DNA of 64,000 nt from an uncultured Caulobacterales bacterium (GTDB lineage Bacteria > Pseudomonadota > Alphaproteobacteria > Caulobacterales > Maricaulaceae), in the NCBI GenBank assembly GCA_947503715.1, contig CANNER010000002.1:620001-684000 (forward strand), read 5' to 3'. Positions 9,772 through 16,961 of the stretch are shown here, piece by piece; positions within the stretch are counted from its first letter, which is position 1, and the number at the start of each line of letters is the position of its first letter. A model generated the notes under the pieces. It did no database searches. It was given only the letters and a program-made list of their open reading frames with translations, and had not been told where the DNA came from. The position numbers and the translations under genes were made by a program.

Positions 9772-10778
9772 GCACCGCAGCTTTCTCGCACAATGACATC
9801 GGTCGGTAATCGTTCAGATGTCATCTCGCCGCCGCCCGCGGAATTAATTAGCTTGCTGACCATTAACCGTCCGGCACGACTCAAATCCTGACGAATAGTC
9901 GTCAGGCCCGGACGGGAATAGCGCGCGAGCTGGATATCATCATAACCAATGACCGCCACGTCATCAGGTACGCTCATCCCGCGATTCATCAGCCCGCGTA
10001 TCGCGCCCAGCGCAATCGTATCGGAACTACCAAAGATCGCGTCGAATTTCACGCCTTGGGACAGCAACGCGTCGACAGCCGTTTCCGCGCTCTCAATTTC
10101 AAAATGCGCGGCGGAGACGAGGTCAGGGTCAAATTCCAAACCCGCTTGCTCCAAGGCCTGTTTATAGCCGTCAAACCGTTGCCCGATTTCCGGTGCGTCC
10201 GTGTCGCCGAAAAACGCAATCCGTTTGCGCCCCAATCGCGCGAGATGGGCCGTCGCCCGCCGACCGCCACGAATATTGTCCGTGCCCACAGACGGGTATC
10301 TCTGCCCCGGCAATTGTCCGCCCCAGACGATGAAACGGTTTTCGTGCTCGGCCAGTCTGTTCAGACGATCATGGAGGAAACTCTGGCCCAGAAAAATGAC
10401 GCCATCACTTCGGTTCGTTGCAATTAATTTTGAGAGGTCATCATAGCTCTGCGGTATGGCGTGACTGACGAGGAAGTCACATTTAATCTCCCGCGCGGCT
10501 TCGCCAATCCCGCCAAGAAGCTCAAGAAAAAACGGGTCCTGCAACCATCCCTCCCGCCCCTGTGGTCGTGGTATGACGATAGAAATCGTCGCCACCGCGC
10601 GGTCCAGCGCGGAGGGCATGTTTGGGCGAAAGCCGTACCCCTGCTCCCGCGCGAGTTTCCAGATGCGCCGCTTGGTCTGTTCATTGACGGCGGGGCTGTC
10701 ATTTAAAGCCCGCGAGACGGTCGCGATGGACACGCCCGCACTCGTCGCAAGATCTTCAAGGCGGACGGATTTAACCAT
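9768..10778 (-). CDS. LacI-family transcriptional regulator of the maltodextrin locus
   Basis: 336 residues. The N-terminal LacI helix-turn-helix is obvious (VRLEDLATSAGVSIATVSRA, residues 5-24), followed by a hinge and a periplasmic-binding-protein-like effector domain containing IFLGQSF, GGRRATAHLARLG and VIGYDD. The ATG overlaps the stop of the upstream MFS transporter gene (TAATG), so the two are translationally coupled. Location between the sugar hydrolases and the transporter makes it the likely local regulator responding to a maltose-type sugar; effector and repression/activation mode are inferred only. Confidence 0.92.
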   Translation of the reverse strand: MVKSVRLEDLATSAGVSIATVSRALNDSPAVNEQTKRRIWKLAREQGYGFRPNMPSALDRAVATISIVIPRPQGREGWLQDPFFLELLGGIGEAAREIKCDFLVSHAIPQSYDDLSKLIATNRSDGVIFLGQSFLHDRLNRLAEHENRFIVWGGQLPGQRYPSVGTDNIRGGRRATAHLARLGRKRIAFFGDTDAPEIGQRFDGYKQALEQAGLEFDPDLVSAAHFEIESAETAVDALLSQGVKFDAIFGSSDTIALGAIRGLMNRGMSVPDDVAVIGYDDIQLARYSRPGLTTIRQDLSRAGRLMVSKLINSAGGGEMTSERLPTDVIVRESCGA

Positions 10779-12397
10779 TAGGCTTTGATATCCTTATAAG
10801 GCACAAACATGAGCAGGATCGCTCCCAGTGCCATGACGACACCGCCGAGGATGAGCGCGTTTGCAACCTCTCCTCCCAGTAACGCTTTGACCACAAGCGC
10901 CATGACCGTGGCAACAATGATTTGCGGCAGGACGATAAAGAAGTTGAATATGCCCATATAAATGCCCATTTTTTCAGCAGGCAGCGCTTCGGCGAGAATG
11001 GAATAGGGGAGGACGAGAACCGAGGTCCAGGCAATGCCGATCAGGATAGCACTGATCGTGAATTTCGTGCCGAACAGACCCAGCCCGATTTCACCAAGCC
11101 CGTCGCCCATGAACTGCCCGACGGGCAACAACGCCATAAGCGCCAGTCCCAGACCGCCGCAGATCAAACCGAAACCATAAGTCGGTTTGAGGCCAAATAT
11201 ACGCCCCATCAGTGGCAGCAACATCGCATAACCAATCGGGATGAGGTTATAGACCCCGAACATGCCGTAAACGGAATTTGCGGCGGCGTCATAGGCGGCA
11301 GAGCCCGCATCTTCCGTCCCGAATTTCGACGCGGCAATGGCGGGCACAGTGTATATCCACATGATGAAAAAGGCGAACCACGACGTGAATTGGACCGCCG
11401 CCAAGCGCTTCATGACGGTCGGCATGGCGACAAGATCGGCCAAGACATCGCCAATCATATGTCCGCGTCTCGCGCCCATCAGGGCATTGAGGCCGAAGAG
11501 GACCGTTGCGACGGCCATCAAGCCGATGAAAATCGAAAAGGACCGTTTGGCATTTAAATAGTCGGCTTCCGCCAAAGTGCTGGATGTCACCATGAAGATC
11601 AGAGAGCCGAGCGTCGCAAGGCCAAAAACAATCGCCAGTTTCCAGAAGGTGGACGGCGCAGCATCCGGCTTTTCCAATTCTGCGCGACGGGCTGCTGCGA
11701 GGTTCGTGTCCTCATTCTCCTCAAAAGAAGCTAATTCTTCCGAACTATATTCTTTCGAGAAAAACACTGTGATGAGAACCGAGAGCAGCAAGAGGCCCGC
11801 CCCAATAAAAAAGGCGAGTTTCACATGTTCCGGAATGCCTTCGCTCGTCGCAACGGCTTCGCCGGGGGAGAGCCAGGCGGGCAGGTTTGAGCCAACAAAT
11901 CCACCAATGCCGATCATCACACCTTGCGCGGCGTAACCCACAGTCTTTTGTTCGGAATTGAGGTTGTCGCCGACAAAGGCCCGAAACGGCTCCATCGAAA
12001 TATTGAGCGCCGCATCCAATATCCACAGCGATCCTACCGCCAGCCAGAGGACGGGAGAGGTCGGCATGAAAATGAGCGCTAGCGTCGCAAGAACTGCACC
12101 CGCCAGAAAGTAAGGTCTACGCCGGCCGAAACGCCCCCATGTCCGGTCCGAAAAATACCCGACAATCGGTTGAATGACGAGGCCCGTCAGAGGAGCCGCC
12201 AGCCACAGTACGGGAAGATTATCGACATCAGCACCAAGCGATTGAAAAATTCGCGACGCATTCCCGTTCTGCAACGCAAATCCGATCTGTAATCCAAAAA
12301 ACCCAACCGCCATAGTGATGATGGACAACAGGCTCATCATCGGCTTTTGTAATTTTTCGCGCGCGCCTATTGCGCCTGTCTGTGCAGTCACGTCCAT
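10778..12397 (-). CDS. MFS sugar transporter (GPH/sucrose-maltose carrier type)
   Basis: A 539-residue polytopic membrane protein with about 12 hydrophobic segments. The loop motif GRFGRRRPYFLAG after the first segments is typical of sucrose/maltose proton symporters of the SLC45-like group. It would bring maltose or maltooligosaccharides from the periplasm into the cytoplasm. I chose the ATG at 12397 because AAAGGGG stands 6 bp upstream; a TTG 18 bp earlier has no such signal. It is first in an operon with the LacI gene, whose start overlaps its stop. A TGCA palindrome lies just upstream of the ribosome-binding site. Confidence 0.9.
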   Translation of the reverse strand: MDVTAQTGAIGAREKLQKPMMSLLSIITMAVGFFGLQIGFALQNGNASRIFQSLGADVDNLPVLWLAAPLTGLVIQPIVGYFSDRTWGRFGRRRPYFLAGAVLATLALIFMPTSPVLWLAVGSLWILDAALNISMEPFRAFVGDNLNSEQKTVGYAAQGVMIGIGGFVGSNLPAWLSPGEAVATSEGIPEHVKLAFFIGAGLLLLSVLITVFFSKEYSSEELASFEENEDTNLAAARRAELEKPDAAPSTFWKLAIVFGLATLGSLIFMVTSSTLAEADYLNAKRSFSIFIGLMAVATVLFGLNALMGARRGHMIGDVLADLVAMPTVMKRLAAVQFTSWFAFFIMWIYTVPAIAASKFGTEDAGSAAYDAAANSVYGMFGVYNLIPIGYAMLLPLMGRIFGLKPTYGFGLICGGLGLALMALLPVGQFMGDGLGEIGLGLFGTKFTISAILIGIAWTSVLVLPYSILAEALPAEKMGIYMGIFNFFIVLPQIIVATVMALVVKALLGGEVANALILGGVVMALGAILLMFVPYKDIKA

Positions 12398-12470: not shown

Positions 12471-14735
12471 CTATCCCCAATGTGTTTCGCGGTAATTCAT
12501 CAAATCGGGGCCTTGCAACTCACGGGTTTGGTTGCCCATGCGAACATAAAAACAGGTTGGATTTCCACCCGATTTAGGCTTGCAGAAAATGGGTGCAGGT
12601 GAAGGTCTGACTGTAATGCGGCAGAGGTCTTTCCCTTCTATTTTTTCATAGTTGATGTGTATAAATCCTGCGGAGGTCTGCGAGAGGTGATTTTCAAATA
12701 ATTGTCGCAGAAATAATTCATGCCCGTCCTGGTCTTGTTTTTTCGAGAGCGTTGCATAGTCATTTTCAAGGCCTAAAACCTCACCATCGTCATCAACACC
12801 TATGACGAGAATGCCACCCTGAGCATTAGCAAATCCTGTAACCGTCTTAATAATGGCGTGTTCAATATAGGCCTCTTGTTTTTTGGAACGATAACAAAAT
12901 CTGGCACTGGATTTAAACTCTATACGGTTATTCTCACCGCGCTTGATGTAATCGCGTAAGGACAAGGTCTCGTTTTTCTGAGTTTCATCAATGGCGATTT
13001 TATCAAACGCAATTTGAACAACCGAGGCGATGAGCTTTCGTCGTTTGGATTTGAACAATCCGTAATCCATAGTCTCCCAACCGAGGGGCAGGGCATGATA
13101 TCCCATATGGCGGGTCAGTTCGGCTTCGGAAAACCCATCCAGCATTTTGGGCCAATAGTCTTCCGGGGCATGCGCGCCGGCCTTCATGTTTTCTGGCCAA
13201 TCGACATAGGCCATATTGGCAATCGCATTCCGTTCTGATCTATCGCTGACGCCCTGTGACTTTAGAAAAGCGACTGGGAAAAGGTGATGACGCTCGACAG
13301 ATCGCACCGTCTGCGTACCGGGGTCTAGTAAGTCCCGCATCCGAATATTTGAGAGCAGGGCTGGCGCGTCTTCCAGAACTAGTGCGGCGGCATAGGCCGA
13401 CATGGCCGGAGATTTGCCGGACGAGGAGTCGAGGAGGTTGGGAAATGAAATGGACCAGAAATCCTGTGTGAAACTATCTTCTATGATAGACTCCAAGAGC
13501 TTTTCAAACGCTTCAGCCGATGTCCCCTCACTGGCAAATGCCCGCAGGTCAGCATCTAATGTGGACTCTGTGCTGGATGTATAGCGACTCGTTGTGCTGA
13601 CCATGAAAAACCAGCGCGCAATTATTTTTCGAAGTTTGGAATAATCCAAGCCATGTTTAAGCTTTCCAATGAGCCAAGCGACATAGGTCAACATCACGGT
13701 GTTCCCGGATGAGATCATGGACGCATTTCGAAAACCTGCGAGGTTTAGGCATTTTAAAAATTCATGCCAATGGGTTAGATTCAAGACATGATCTAAAGTT
13801 GTTTCCAATTTTTCAAACTGTACTTGCCTGTCATGACTATCTGTTTCCAGATCTCCAACTGTTTTACCCAGTAAAAGGCGATAGACGGCGGACATTCGTC
13901 CCAGATTAAATGCCAGCGCGACCGCCACTCGAAGTAACTGTTCAGGTTTGGGATCTATGAGTGCATTTGCCGGGCTGGGTTTTCCGGAAGTCGGCTTGAC
14001 AGCCGACTTGCAAAAAGCCTCAAGTTTTACACGCGACTCTTCCGCATTGACAGACATGAGTGTCATAACAAAGTCAGATTGCTTAAGCGGCGTTCCTTTT
14101 GAATTGATACGGACAAAAATATTCGCAACTTCTTCGTCTTTCGCATGCGACATGAGTTCTACGACTTGGAACTCGAAATTTCTTAAATTGCGCACGCGTT
14201 CTATCGCACGTTCAATATTCCCGCGTGCATTGCCGAGATCTCCGCCTCTAGCTATTTTTAGTCTTTTAAAGAACGAGTCGCGATATTCATAATATTCTTC
14301 TGTCCAGAGTTCCGTGACATTTGGTATCCATTCCGCGCTACGCTGATTGGCGGCGTTAGAGACTTCAAATTCTTCACGGGCGGGATTGAACGCAATTTTA
14401 ATGGGCCGCGATTTAAACTGCTTATCTAAAACGTTCTCCCCTGTCAGGATTGCATAGAGTGAGGTAAGACGCTGTTGTCCATCTACAATCAAATATTTTG
14501 TTGTGCGTTTACCTGTTCCGTCCCCGATTTTTTTGGCGCGTTCCGTTTGATCTGTTTCCCAGAACATCAGCGTGCCAATCGGATATCCGCGATACATTGA
14601 GTCCAGCAGGTCGCGTGATTTATATCCCGGCCAAACAAAAGGCCGTTGAATTTCCGGCAGGGCAATCACACCGCTTTTAATATCTGACACGATATTAGAT
14701 AATTCGATGCGGACATCTTTATAGAGTGAAGCCAT
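12471..14735 (-). CDS. DUF262 - HNH (DUF1524) - AlbA_2 three-domain protein, candidate defence nuclease
   Basis: 754 residues from the ATG at 14735, which follows TTGGGGAAA. The N-terminal DUF262/GmrS-like domain has LPEIQRPFVWP (about 26-36) and VDGQQRLTSLY with the hallmark DGQQR at 85-89, an NTPase-like ParB-related fold. An HNH-type DUF1524 part follows with ERHHLFPVAFL (His near 483) and NMAYVDWPENMKAG. From about 600 to 740 is an AlbA_2/Schlafen-like domain (NRIEFKSSARF, then GGILVIGVDDDGEVLGLEN). DUF262 plus DUF1524 is the arrangement of GmrSD, BrxU and SspE anti-phage nucleases; the added AlbA_2 domain is unusual. It stands alone between two metabolic operons and is visibly more AT-rich. 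No cognate methylase or partner is nearby. Confidence 0.85.
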   Translation of the reverse strand: MASLYKDVRIELSNIVSDIKSGVIALPEIQRPFVWPGYKSRDLLDSMYRGYPIGTLMFWETDQTERAKKIGDGTGKRTTKYLIVDGQQRLTSLYAILTGENVLDKQFKSRPIKIAFNPAREEFEVSNAANQRSAEWIPNVTELWTEEYYEYRDSFFKRLKIARGGDLGNARGNIERAIERVRNLRNFEFQVVELMSHAKDEEVANIFVRINSKGTPLKQSDFVMTLMSVNAEESRVKLEAFCKSAVKPTSGKPSPANALIDPKPEQLLRVAVALAFNLGRMSAVYRLLLGKTVGDLETDSHDRQVQFEKLETTLDHVLNLTHWHEFLKCLNLAGFRNASMISSGNTVMLTYVAWLIGKLKHGLDYSKLRKIIARWFFMVSTTSRYTSSTESTLDADLRAFASEGTSAEAFEKLLESIIEDSFTQDFWSISFPNLLDSSSGKSPAMSAYAAALVLEDAPALLSNIRMRDLLDPGTQTVRSVERHHLFPVAFLKSQGVSDRSERNAIANMAYVDWPENMKAGAHAPEDYWPKMLDGFSEAELTRHMGYHALPLGWETMDYGLFKSKRRKLIASVVQIAFDKIAIDETQKNETLSLRDYIKRGENNRIEFKSSARFCYRSKKQEAYIEHAIIKTVTGFANAQGGILVIGVDDDGEVLGLENDYATLSKKQDQDGHELFLRQLFENHLSQTSAGFIHINYEKIEGKDLCRITVRPSPAPIFCKPKSGGNPTCFYVRMGNQTRELQGPDLMNYRETHWG

Positions 14736-14822
14736 ATATATTTTCCCCAAATTTAGTGGATGACCTCTGGTCGCATATTTGTTTAAAGCAATTTTCTATT
14801 GCGTAAATAAGAACCTCTAGAT

Positions 14823-16961
14823 TTAAGCGCCTTGGCTCAACCGCATATTCACAACATCGAGAACTTCCAGAACAGCTTCGGGAATATTCGTACCGGGCGG
14901 GAAGACGGCTTTTGCACCCATCTCTTTTAAGGTCTCGACATCTTCGGGCGGGATGACGCCGCCGACGATGATCAGGATGTCTTCGCGACCGCTGGCTTTC
15001 AGCGCGTCGCGTAGGGACGGGATGAGGGAGAGGTGGCCCGCAGCGAGGGAGCTGGCCGCGATGACATCAACATCTGACGTGATGCCCAGTTCTGCAGCTT
15101 CTTCGGGCGTCTGGAAAAGCGGACCGATCACCACGTCAAACCCGATATCGGAAAAGGCCGTGGCGACGACTTTCTGGCCGCGATCATGGCCGTCCTGTCC
15201 CATTTTCGCGATTAGGATTTTGGGCTTGCGGCCTTCCAGTTCCGTGAAGGCGTCGATGCGGGATTTGGCGTCTTTTAAGGCCGGATTATTTTCATCAAAG
15301 GCCCTGGAATAAACACCGCGTACGCCGGCGGGTTTAGCGGTAAACCGGCCATAGACTTTCTCGAGCGCATCGGAAATCTCGCCAACCGTCGCTTTCTTGC
15401 GCGCCGCATCCACGGCGAGTTCGAGGAGGTTGCCTTGGCCTGTATCCGCGGATTTCGTGAGCGCGTCCAGCGCCTCCATCGTCGCCTGCGTATCGCGGTC
15501 CGCGCGGAGTTGGTTGAGCCGCGCGATCTGTCCCTGCCGCACTGTGTCATTATCGACCTTCAGGATTGGAATGTCGTCAGTCTCGTCTGAGAGATATTTG
15601 TTCACGCCGACAACCGTTTGTGCGCCGCTATCAATCCGTGCCTGAATGCGGGCGGCGGATTCCTCAATGCGAAGTTTTGGAATACCCGCTTCAATCGCGG
15701 CGGCCATGCCGCCCAGCGCTTCGACTTCGCGAATATGGCCAAGCGCTTTCGCGGCAAGATCATGGGTCAATTTTTCGACGTAATAGCTGCCTGCCCAGGG
15801 GTCGATCTGCTTCGTGTGACCGCCTTCTGTTTGTAGGAAAATTTGCGTGTTCCGCGCAATCCGCGCCGAGAAATCCGTGGGCAGGGCAAGGGCTTCGTCG
15901 AGCGAATTTGTGTGCAGCGACTGCGTCCCACCATCCACGGCGGCCATGGCCTCAATGTGGGTGCGGCCCACATTGTTGAAAACATCCTGCGCGGTCAGAG
16001 ACCAGCCGGAAGTCTGGCAATGGGTGCGCAACATATTGGATTTCGGGTTCTGCGGATCAAACGCGCCGATCAGTTGCGCCCAAAGAAGTCGTGCCGCGCG
16101 GAGCTTCGCCACTTCCATAAAATAATTCATCCCGACCGCCCAGAAAAAGCTGAGCCTCGGCGCGAAACGGTCAATATCCATCCCCGCCGCGAGACCCGTG
16201 CGGACATATTCCAACCCGTCGGCCAGTGTGTAGCCCAGCTCAATATCCGCCGACGCCCCCGCTTCCTGCATGTGATAGCCGGAGATCGAAATGGAATTGA
16301 ATTTCGGCATATGGGTGGAGGTATGTTTGAAAATATCCTCGATAATGCGCAGGCTCGGTTTCGGCGGATAGATGTAGGTATTGCGCACCATGAATTCTTT
16401 CAGGATGTCATTCTGAATAGTCCCGGCTAGCTGTTCCTGTTTCACGCCCTGTTCCTCTGCGGCGGCTATATAGAGTGCGAGGACGGGCAGGACTGCGCCG
16501 TTCATCGTCATGGACACAGACATTTTATCCAGCGGGATCTGATCGAACAGGACCCGCATATCGTAAATAGAATCAATCGCGACACCCGCCATCCCGACAT
16601 CGCCAGGGACACGCGGATGGTCTGAGTCATAACCGCGATGGGTTGCGAGATCGAAAGCGACGGAAAGACCTTTCTGACCCGCCGCGAGATTGCGGCGGTA
16701 GAAAGCGTTGGAGTCTTCCGCCGTCGAGAACCCCGCATATTGGCGGACGGTCCAAGGGCGCTGCACATACATGGTGGGATAGGGACCACGGAGGTAGGGC
16801 GCGAAACCGGGATGGGTGTCTGTAAAAGGCAGGGTGGAGGTGTCCGCCGCGGTGTAATTTGCGGCGATGTCGATGCCTTCAGGAGAAGTCCAAGCGGCGC
16901 CAGAGCGTGGAGCGGTTGTTGCCGAGCCGAGGTCGAGTTTAGTGAAATCGGGATAGGTCAT
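14823..16961 (-). CDS. mutB: Methylmalonyl-CoA mutase large (catalytic) subunit
   Basis: Adenosylcobalamin-dependent enzyme of 712 residues interconverting (R)-methylmalonyl-CoA and succinyl-CoA in propionate and branched-chain metabolism. The substrate-binding barrel part has [20 protein letters not shown] and [10 protein letters not shown]. The C-terminal B12-binding domain has [10 protein letters not shown], giving the DxHxxG motif with H592 as the lower cobalt ligand. Length is normal. Its ATG overlaps the stop of the small-subunit gene by 4 bp (ATGA), so the two are coupled. No cobalamin riboswitch or MeaB chaperone gene is seen in the window. Confidence 0.96.

Follow-up and report, generated by a model that had tools for sequence, protein, structure and literature searches.

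A lone DUF262–HNH–AlbA_2 gene of a Caulobacterales bacterium as a candidate restriction protein with a possible Schlafen-type second effector

What might a single gene that joins a DUF262 domain, an HNH-like nuclease and an AlbA_2 domain be doing among metabolic genes of a bacterial chromosome? The gene, here called P0001, lies in a window of 64,000 nucleotides (positions 620,001 to 684,000 of contig CANNER010000002.1, assembly GCA_947503715.1) from an uncultured Caulobacterales bacterium of the Maricaulaceae. From the letters of the window, the original prediction had proposed a possible one-gene defence system. The reading preferred here, to which a probability of about 0.5 is assigned, is that P0001 is a horizontally acquired restriction protein against phages, encoded by one gene and of the GmrSD/BrxU kind (type IV-like), with a putative Schlafen-type ribonuclease (RNase) as second effector. 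The domains and their site residues are present, relatives keep the company of defence genes, the fusion is patchily distributed, and the same AlbA_2 subfamily is reused on other defence proteins. A wider and more tentative proposal, which falls somewhat short of even odds, is that this subfamily may be a movable RNase kill-switch that was attached on several occasions to the C-terminal end of defence machines acting on DNA: GmrSD proteins of two lineages, the BrxL of bacteriophage exclusion (BREX) systems, Hhe-type helicase-nucleases and perhaps an HsdS-like protein. It would couple DNA and RNA restriction in one polypeptide, and P0001 would be a free-standing one-gene example. The features of the gene are as follows.

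12471..14735, minus strand: P0001 gene, 754 residues; intact open reading frame (ORF), ATG at 14735, stop at 12471
14064..14702, minus strand: DUF262 / GmrSD_N (ParB/Srx-type NTPase), residues 12–224; Pfam PF03235, E 1.9e-33
14469..14483, minus strand: DGQQR nucleotide-site motif, residues 85–89; unchanged in 12 of 12 fused proteins
13188..13289, minus strand: HNH-like nuclease core, HHLFP 483–487, N507 and N516; H484, N507 and N516 kept in 12 of 12
12936..12992, minus strand: linker, residues 582–600, mostly of low model confidence; predicted local distance difference test score (pLDDT) below 50 for 584–600
12516..12935, minus strand: SLFN_AlbA_2, residues 601–740; Pfam PF04326, E 7.2e-19; structure matches to DIP2311, SAMD9 and Schlafens
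12933..12935, minus strand: E601, aligned with SLFN13 E205 / SLFN14 E206; kept in 12 of 12
12918..12920, minus strand: E606, aligned with SLFN13 E210 / SLFN14 E211; kept in 12 of 12
12789..12791, minus strand: D649, aligned with SLFN13 D248 / SLFN14 D249; kept in 12 of 12

Domains and site residues of P0001

The GmrSD_N and SLFN_AlbA_2 scores lie far above the curated cut-offs of Pfam. The HNH-like middle has no Pfam HNH or GmrSD_C match at E≤0.01; the same segment of two relatives, L024 and L025, gives weak GmrSD_C matches (E 1.9e-4 and 2.8e-3) under the family cut-off. Pfam, site motifs and structure matches together bear out the order DUF262, HNH-like, AlbA_2 in one ORF, and the three-part description first given of the gene is therefore correct. 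The mechanical ORF list begins the frame at a TTG at 14750; the ATG at 14735 is the first of P0001. In other profile collections, NCBIfam returned no match, PHROGs returned families of unknown function and one helicase family, and the best PADLOC match was the candidate family HEC-05 (E 1.6e-32, best stretch residues 9–243).

Both presumed active sites are conserved. DGQQR, H484, N507, N516, E601, E606, K608, K630 and D649 are unchanged in all 12 proteins that share the fusion. Within the RLFDS motif of DUF262, L43 and S46 are kept in 12 of 12 and D45 in 11; the roles of the GmrSD_N motifs are treated in the available part of PMC8565348. The published GmrSD nuclease motif is DHIYP, as given in the accessible text of PMC10952713 and PMC8565348. 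At the corresponding HHLFP of P0001, position 483 is histidine in nine fused proteins and aspartate in three, and P487 is kept in 11 of 12. H484, N507 and N516 are also found in all 23 rows of alignment A3, 19 of which are unfused.

In the tail, the acids E601, E606 and D649 fall on the catalytic acids of SLFN13 and SLFN14 in an alignment with solved Schlafens; the offset of 13 in the numbering of the Schlafen 13 chain was derived in this analysis. E211A of SLFN14 is named in Protein Data Bank titles, and E206 and D249 are presumably its other catalytic positions. In SLFN13, mutation of any one of the three acids lowers nuclease activity, according to the available part of PMC5862951. The AlbA_2 segment of P0001 has 24 gap-free acidic columns; five are invariant in the 12 proteins, and three of those five are the triad. 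It had been said of the domain that it binds or cuts nucleic acid in other proteins. The domain identity stands; a mere binder by default does not agree with three Schlafen-aligned acids kept in every fused protein.

Structure models point the same way for the single domains. An AlphaFold model of the whole protein, built on a 23-row alignment, has a mean pLDDT of 83.1 and a predicted template modelling score (pTM) of 0.62. Foldseek places BrxU first (7p9k; E 1.7e-12, template modelling score (TM-score) 0.30 over the query) and SspE second (6jiv; E 2.4e-5, TM-score 0.17 over the query), and BrxU is also the best sequence match of P0001 among solved structures. Further matches of the whole model to DIP2311, Schlafen 13, Schlafen 14 and the SAMD9 tRNase domain presumably arise through the AlbA_2 tail. 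The TM-scores are low, so that the agreement is one of single domains and does not extend to their packing. A model of the tail by itself (mean pLDDT 72, four rows) matches DIP2311, SAMD9 and Schlafens including SLFN13, with E from 1.7e-6 to 1e-3 and a TM-score over the query of 0.55–0.60 at best. A sequence profile of the 12 fused AlbA_2 domains matches Schlafen 11, 8, 14, 5 and 12, SAMD9 and CbCash. The viral library searched with Foldseek yielded DUF262 proteins of giant viruses and phages, plus one AAA-domain protein.

Relatives, their neighbours and the reuse of the tail

A search for the three-domain order across genomes, which the original prediction had called for, shows that the order recurs in 12 distinct proteins, P0001 included, from Pseudomonadota, haloarchaeal plasmids and two viral-collection contigs. 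L015 is from Dokdonella fugitiva (49% identity to P0001) and L002 from the host's own family (41%); L018 and L019 belong to the host phylum, and L044 and L072 lie on the viral-collection contigs. A second, shorter fused group of about 700–725 residues comprises L004 (host order), L027 (host class), L023 (Sinorhizobium meliloti pSymA), L024 (a Haloquadratum walsbyi plasmid) and L025 (a plasmid of the halophilic archaeon DL31). The fusion is sparse. It occurs in 3 of 149 relatives' genomes (the host's own, G060 and G114), in 3 of 398 genomes of a phylum sample (own, G422 and G300; E≤1e-40) and in 2 of 337 of a class sample (own and G745; E≤1e-30); these samples overlap, and the host genome is counted in each. 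Three relatives matched in the N-terminal part only (G056, G057 and G145), whose loci first ended before the tail, were refetched and carry no AlbA_2; their tails match no Pfam family. A scan of viral contigs with the P0001 sequence alone found nothing. With a nine-row alignment, 161 stretches were confirmed and 80 loci kept, two of them fusions, and an AlbA_2 alignment again returned the L072 contig only. In a phage collection, eight records matched P0001, none above 80% coverage.

Known defence genes adjoin 7 of the 12 fused genes: restriction-modification (R-M) or Zorya genes, a DrmD-like gene or DUF499/DUF1156. L015 stands downstream of HsdR, HsdS and HsdM on the same strand, followed by an HNH gene. 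L002 adjoins a DrmD-like helicase together with a type III methylase and restriction subunit on the opposite strand. Next downstream of L004 is HsdR, and the genes for ZorA and ZorB are some 3.5 kb distant; L044 is preceded by a C5-methylase and Vsr and followed by an MmeI-like enzyme. Type I R-M and abortive infection (Abi) genes lie within about 8 kb of L023; L024 has an annotated restriction endonuclease adjacent and two DNA methylases about 6 kb away; L025 adjoins a second DUF262 gene, DUF499, DUF1156 and a helicase. L072 is flanked by a resolvase on one side and a phage integrase on the other, L018 and L027 lie close to the ends of their contigs, and the neighbours of P0001 are metabolic genes only. 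A defence-island neighbourhood, proposed earlier as a check, is thus found for the relatives and not for P0001 itself. Recurrence in 12 proteins and this defence company support a single-gene, three-domain protein with a probable defence role. L019 adjoins a DUF3800 gene and another AlbA_2 protein. At L147 (10269-12737), the fused gene is adjoined by a DUF3800 gene and a second AlbA_2 protein matching models associated with prokaryotic Argonautes (pAgo).

The fusion is real, and what matters most is found beyond P0001: members of its AlbA_2 subfamily sit on unrelated defence proteins. (i) In L178 (9622-12198, from the host order), a BrxL of 858 residues within a PglX-PglZ-BrxL operon matches the BrxL model to residue 679. 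An AlbA_2 with the full triad follows, after the complete profile match; a match to the MITD1 C-terminal domain covers residues 525-652 of the protein. (ii) Helicase-nuclease proteins of about 2040–2100 residues, L008/L179 and L159/L180 (also from the host order), bear the same subfamily at their end. Pfam reads L008 as REase_MTES_1575, DUF3320 and AlbA_2; L159 matches PDC-S37 and Hhe in PADLOC, with AlbA_2 beyond the end of the PDC-S37 profile. (iii) L036, of 552 residues, ends in a more distant AlbA_2 and has weak HsdS matches and, by eye, a methylase-like front. (iv) In eight small proteins (L006, L161, L163, L171-L174 and L177), the same subfamily comes after one to three hydrophobic segments at the N-terminus, with the full triad in all eight; these proteins are possibly membrane-tethered nucleases. 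A phospholipase D-like gene that overlaps a short AlbA_2 frame was also seen on a Leptolyngbya boryana plasmid (L175, 2073-4444), perhaps a split phospholipase D–AlbA_2 fusion.

The GmrSD scaffold also carries another tail. On a viral contig, the GmrSD protein L056 (7971-10445) ends in HEPN_Cthe2314 (Pfam E 5.4e-22) with the Rx4H motif RTMAAH. In the available part of PMC3710099, HEPN is reported fused to DUF262-HNH (VNG7073) and to a helicase with a Vsr-type endonuclease (MTES_1575), and no fusions are listed for the Cthe_2314 family. L056 and these published fusions together show GmrSD and helicase-endonuclease scaffolds each bearing either HEPN or AlbA_2. HEPN domains carrying that motif form an RNase family; by analogy, AlbA_2 at the GmrSD tail is most simply read as doing the same job, which would make it an RNase. 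In two genomes of the host's family and order, the GmrSD proteins L184 (1191-3482) and L185 (1184-3421) have tails ending RNSIRH and RNTIRH; these look HEPN-like by eye only, and no Pfam family matches there.

The history of the fusion was traced on two trees. The GmrSD tree holds 51 hand-picked rows, 12 fused and 39 unfused, with weak, partial and duplicate rows left out. Its fused proteins fall into two well-separated groups, with five label changes by parsimony, at least two of them forced (starred branches). The AlbA_2 tree (26 of 34 distinct rows, distant or partial ones left out) does not unite the 12 fused domains and has four changes, at least two forced; P0001 and L015 group there with a small unfused AlbA_2 protein and the BrxL-borne domain. 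Both carry long-branch warnings: long branches meet in the GmrSD tree, and the AlbA_2 tree has two long rows, one of which is L036. Label changes on both trees indicate that the AlbA_2 tail has been gained, swapped or lost more than once; a single gain followed by later losses may account for the pattern. One fusion simply inherited by all 12 was considered and rejected, as both trees force at least two changes. Four GmrSD proteins (L007, L030, L076 and L073) are sister to the second fused group and have tails of about 115–128 residues; that of L076, the one scanned, matches no Pfam family.

Competing readings and the locus

For the activities, trigger, DNA and RNA targets and dimer of P0001, the following scheme is inferred. 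(i) The DUF262 NTPase part would sense foreign, probably modified, DNA. (ii) Binding or hydrolysis of nucleoside triphosphate (NTP) would switch the conformation of the protein, as reported for BrxU and SspE. (iii) The HNH domain would then cut the sensed DNA. (iv) AlbA_2, held off at rest, may dimerize and so rebuild the two-lobed Schlafen pocket. (v) As a metal-dependent RNase, it would attack tRNA or other RNA once the DNA step is engaged or has failed. (vi) This attack would stop translation as a back-up.

Several observations weigh against this scheme. TM-scores are low for both the whole protein and the tail, and Pfam finds a single AlbA_2 stretch in P0001 as opposed to the two tandem lobes of animal Schlafens. 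The full E-E-D triad occurs in 12 of 22 unfused AlbA_2 rows (the others are changed, distant or truncated; the 22 include truncated rows and one protein in both cut and whole form). Being common there, the triad is a trait of the subfamily and not peculiar to the fusion. The AlbA_2 of L036 is distant, on a long branch, and reads E-E-N. A C5-cytosine methylase gene near L044 makes plain 5-methylcytosine unlikely as the trigger everywhere. The eight neighbours of P0001 scanned by Pfam include no defence gene. Published GmrSD tails (DUF4357 and DNA_binding_1; PMC4619093) include a DNA-binding one.

The chief rival, an unlikely but serious one, also makes P0001 a type IV-like restriction enzyme but gives AlbA_2 the task of recognizing the target or binding DNA; the domain would direct HNH cutting and would not be an effector. 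AlbA_2 is called DNA-binding in pAgo work (available part of PMC6299218), and the related SAMD9 domain is deposited twice over, as a DNA-binding domain solved with DNA and as a tRNase domain. A recognition role does not explain, however, why the triad is kept in 12 of 12. BrxL and the helicase-nucleases already act on DNA, so that AlbA_2 would hardly be needed there as an additional DNA binder. Choice of a DNA target hardly makes sense for the eight small proteins with hydrophobic segments. The slot that AlbA_2 occupies is filled by HEPN in L056, and HEPN is reported on DUF262-HNH as well.

Another possibility, an improbable one, is a toxin-like or regulatory guardian, in which the AlbA_2 RNase would be the main effector (abortive infection) and DUF262-HNH would serve chiefly to sense or switch, restricting little by itself. 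In SspE, it is DUF262 that detects modified DNA and sets off a conformational change (available part of PMC10952713), and the tail is exchangeable, being AlbA_2, HEPN or a segment matching no Pfam family. The guardian role sits poorly with the conservation of H484, N507 and N516 throughout the fused proteins and A3, which makes a working DNase likely.

The locus bears on the claim of acquisition. At 46.5%, the GC content of the gene is below the 54.3% of the window; at third positions it is 46.8%, against 52–66% in six neighbour genes. In the Pfam scan of eight neighbours, one flank holds a major facilitator superfamily (MFS) transporter, a LacI regulator and two alpha-amylases; the other holds a methylmalonyl-CoA mutase pair, an oxidoreductase and LptD. 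The flanks were compared with those of 17 other genomes of the genus.

14823..16961, minus strand: upstream flank, methylmalonyl-CoA mutase; matched in 16 of the 17
10778..12397, minus strand: downstream flank, MFS transporter; matched in 4 of the 17

P0001 itself has no match at E≤1e-10 in any of the 17; conserved presence at the same housekeeping locus, which would have spoken against the original prediction, was looked for and not found. A different gene lies downstream of the mutase in all 14 genomes readable there. Two of the 16 mutase loci were left out as unreadable downstream, one with 1 base there and one with 261, the latter a 61% match. The MFS matches lie on contigs other than that of the mutase, or about 360 kb from it. 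With other neighbours beside the mutase and the MFS gene away from it, the locus is a synteny break, without a clean empty site. A search for flanking repeats around P0001 gave short matches only and no pair resembling phage attachment (att) sites, and promoter and terminator scans there were no richer than shuffled sequence. The earlier description of an AT-rich, solitary gene amid metabolic genes is borne out by composition, neighbours and synteny break. Deviant composition, absence from the 17 genomes and the break together make the gene look horizontally acquired. The host genome has no match to a C5-cytosine methylase, which 10 of 14 control genomes do have; this agrees with a modification-dependent enzyme and does not demonstrate one. 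That P0001 is an ordinary chromosomal gene of the lineage with a housekeeping or regulatory role is very improbable: its solitary place among metabolic genes, with no mobility gene among the eight neighbours scanned, would fit, but its absence from the other genomes of the genus, its deviant base composition, the other neighbours of the mutase in the 14 readable genomes and the defence loci of its relatives all speak against it.

Meaning and comparison with known systems

In the available parts of the literature examined, the status of prokaryotic AlbA_2 as DNA binder or Schlafen-type RNase is unsettled. P0001 unites a DNase-like and a Schlafen-like site in one protein, and since a point mutation could remove either one, the question can be put to a direct test. 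Should the RNase reading be true, an animal antiviral fold would be tied to restriction enzymes of bacteria, and one reusable second effector would be common to BREX, GmrSD and helicase-nuclease systems.

No description of a DUF262-HNH-AlbA_2 protein was found in the open PMC literature as far as it was accessible, a body from which most subscription papers and all preprints are absent. In the 2015 GmrSD census (PMC4619093), the additional domains named are DUF4268, DUF4357 and DNA_binding_1, and the words AlbA and Schlafen are absent from the main text. According to the available part of a BREX survey (PMC12839542), BrxL can carry LonP or HKD tails, and Schlafen RNases occur as separate proteins next to BREX; no AlbA_2-tailed BrxL was seen in it.

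Among characterized systems, BrxU/GmrSD (7p9k) resembles P0001 in having DUF262 with DGQQR and an HNH-like C-terminal nuclease. The solved protein lacks an AlbA_2 tail and has DHIYP where P0001 has HHLFP, and the TM-score is low. SspE (6jiv) joins DUF262 to a DUF1524-type nuclease, and NTP-coupled sensing of modified DNA is known from SspE. It is partnered with SspABCD phosphorothioation, whereas the genes scanned around P0001 are metabolic, and AlbA_2 is not reported in it. The PADLOC family HEC-05 is the best match of P0001 there, but its best stretch takes in the DUF262 part alone.

HEPN and the Schlafen AlbA_2 are different folds. The HEPN-tailed DUF262-HNH proteins of the VNG7073 type share the scaffold of P0001 and add an RNase-type domain, as far as described in the available part of PMC3710099. 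The Schlafen RNases SLFN13, SLFN14 and the tRNase domain of SAMD9 have, as does P0001, the AlbA_2 fold with three aligned catalytic acids; animal Schlafens have two tandem lobes, whereas P0001 has one AlbA_2 domain joined to a predicted DNA nuclease. The coupled-restriction logic proposed for P0001 has a precedent in EcoprrI-PrrC, a DNA restriction enzyme backed by a tRNase, in which the two activities reside in separate proteins of folds unrelated to those of P0001.

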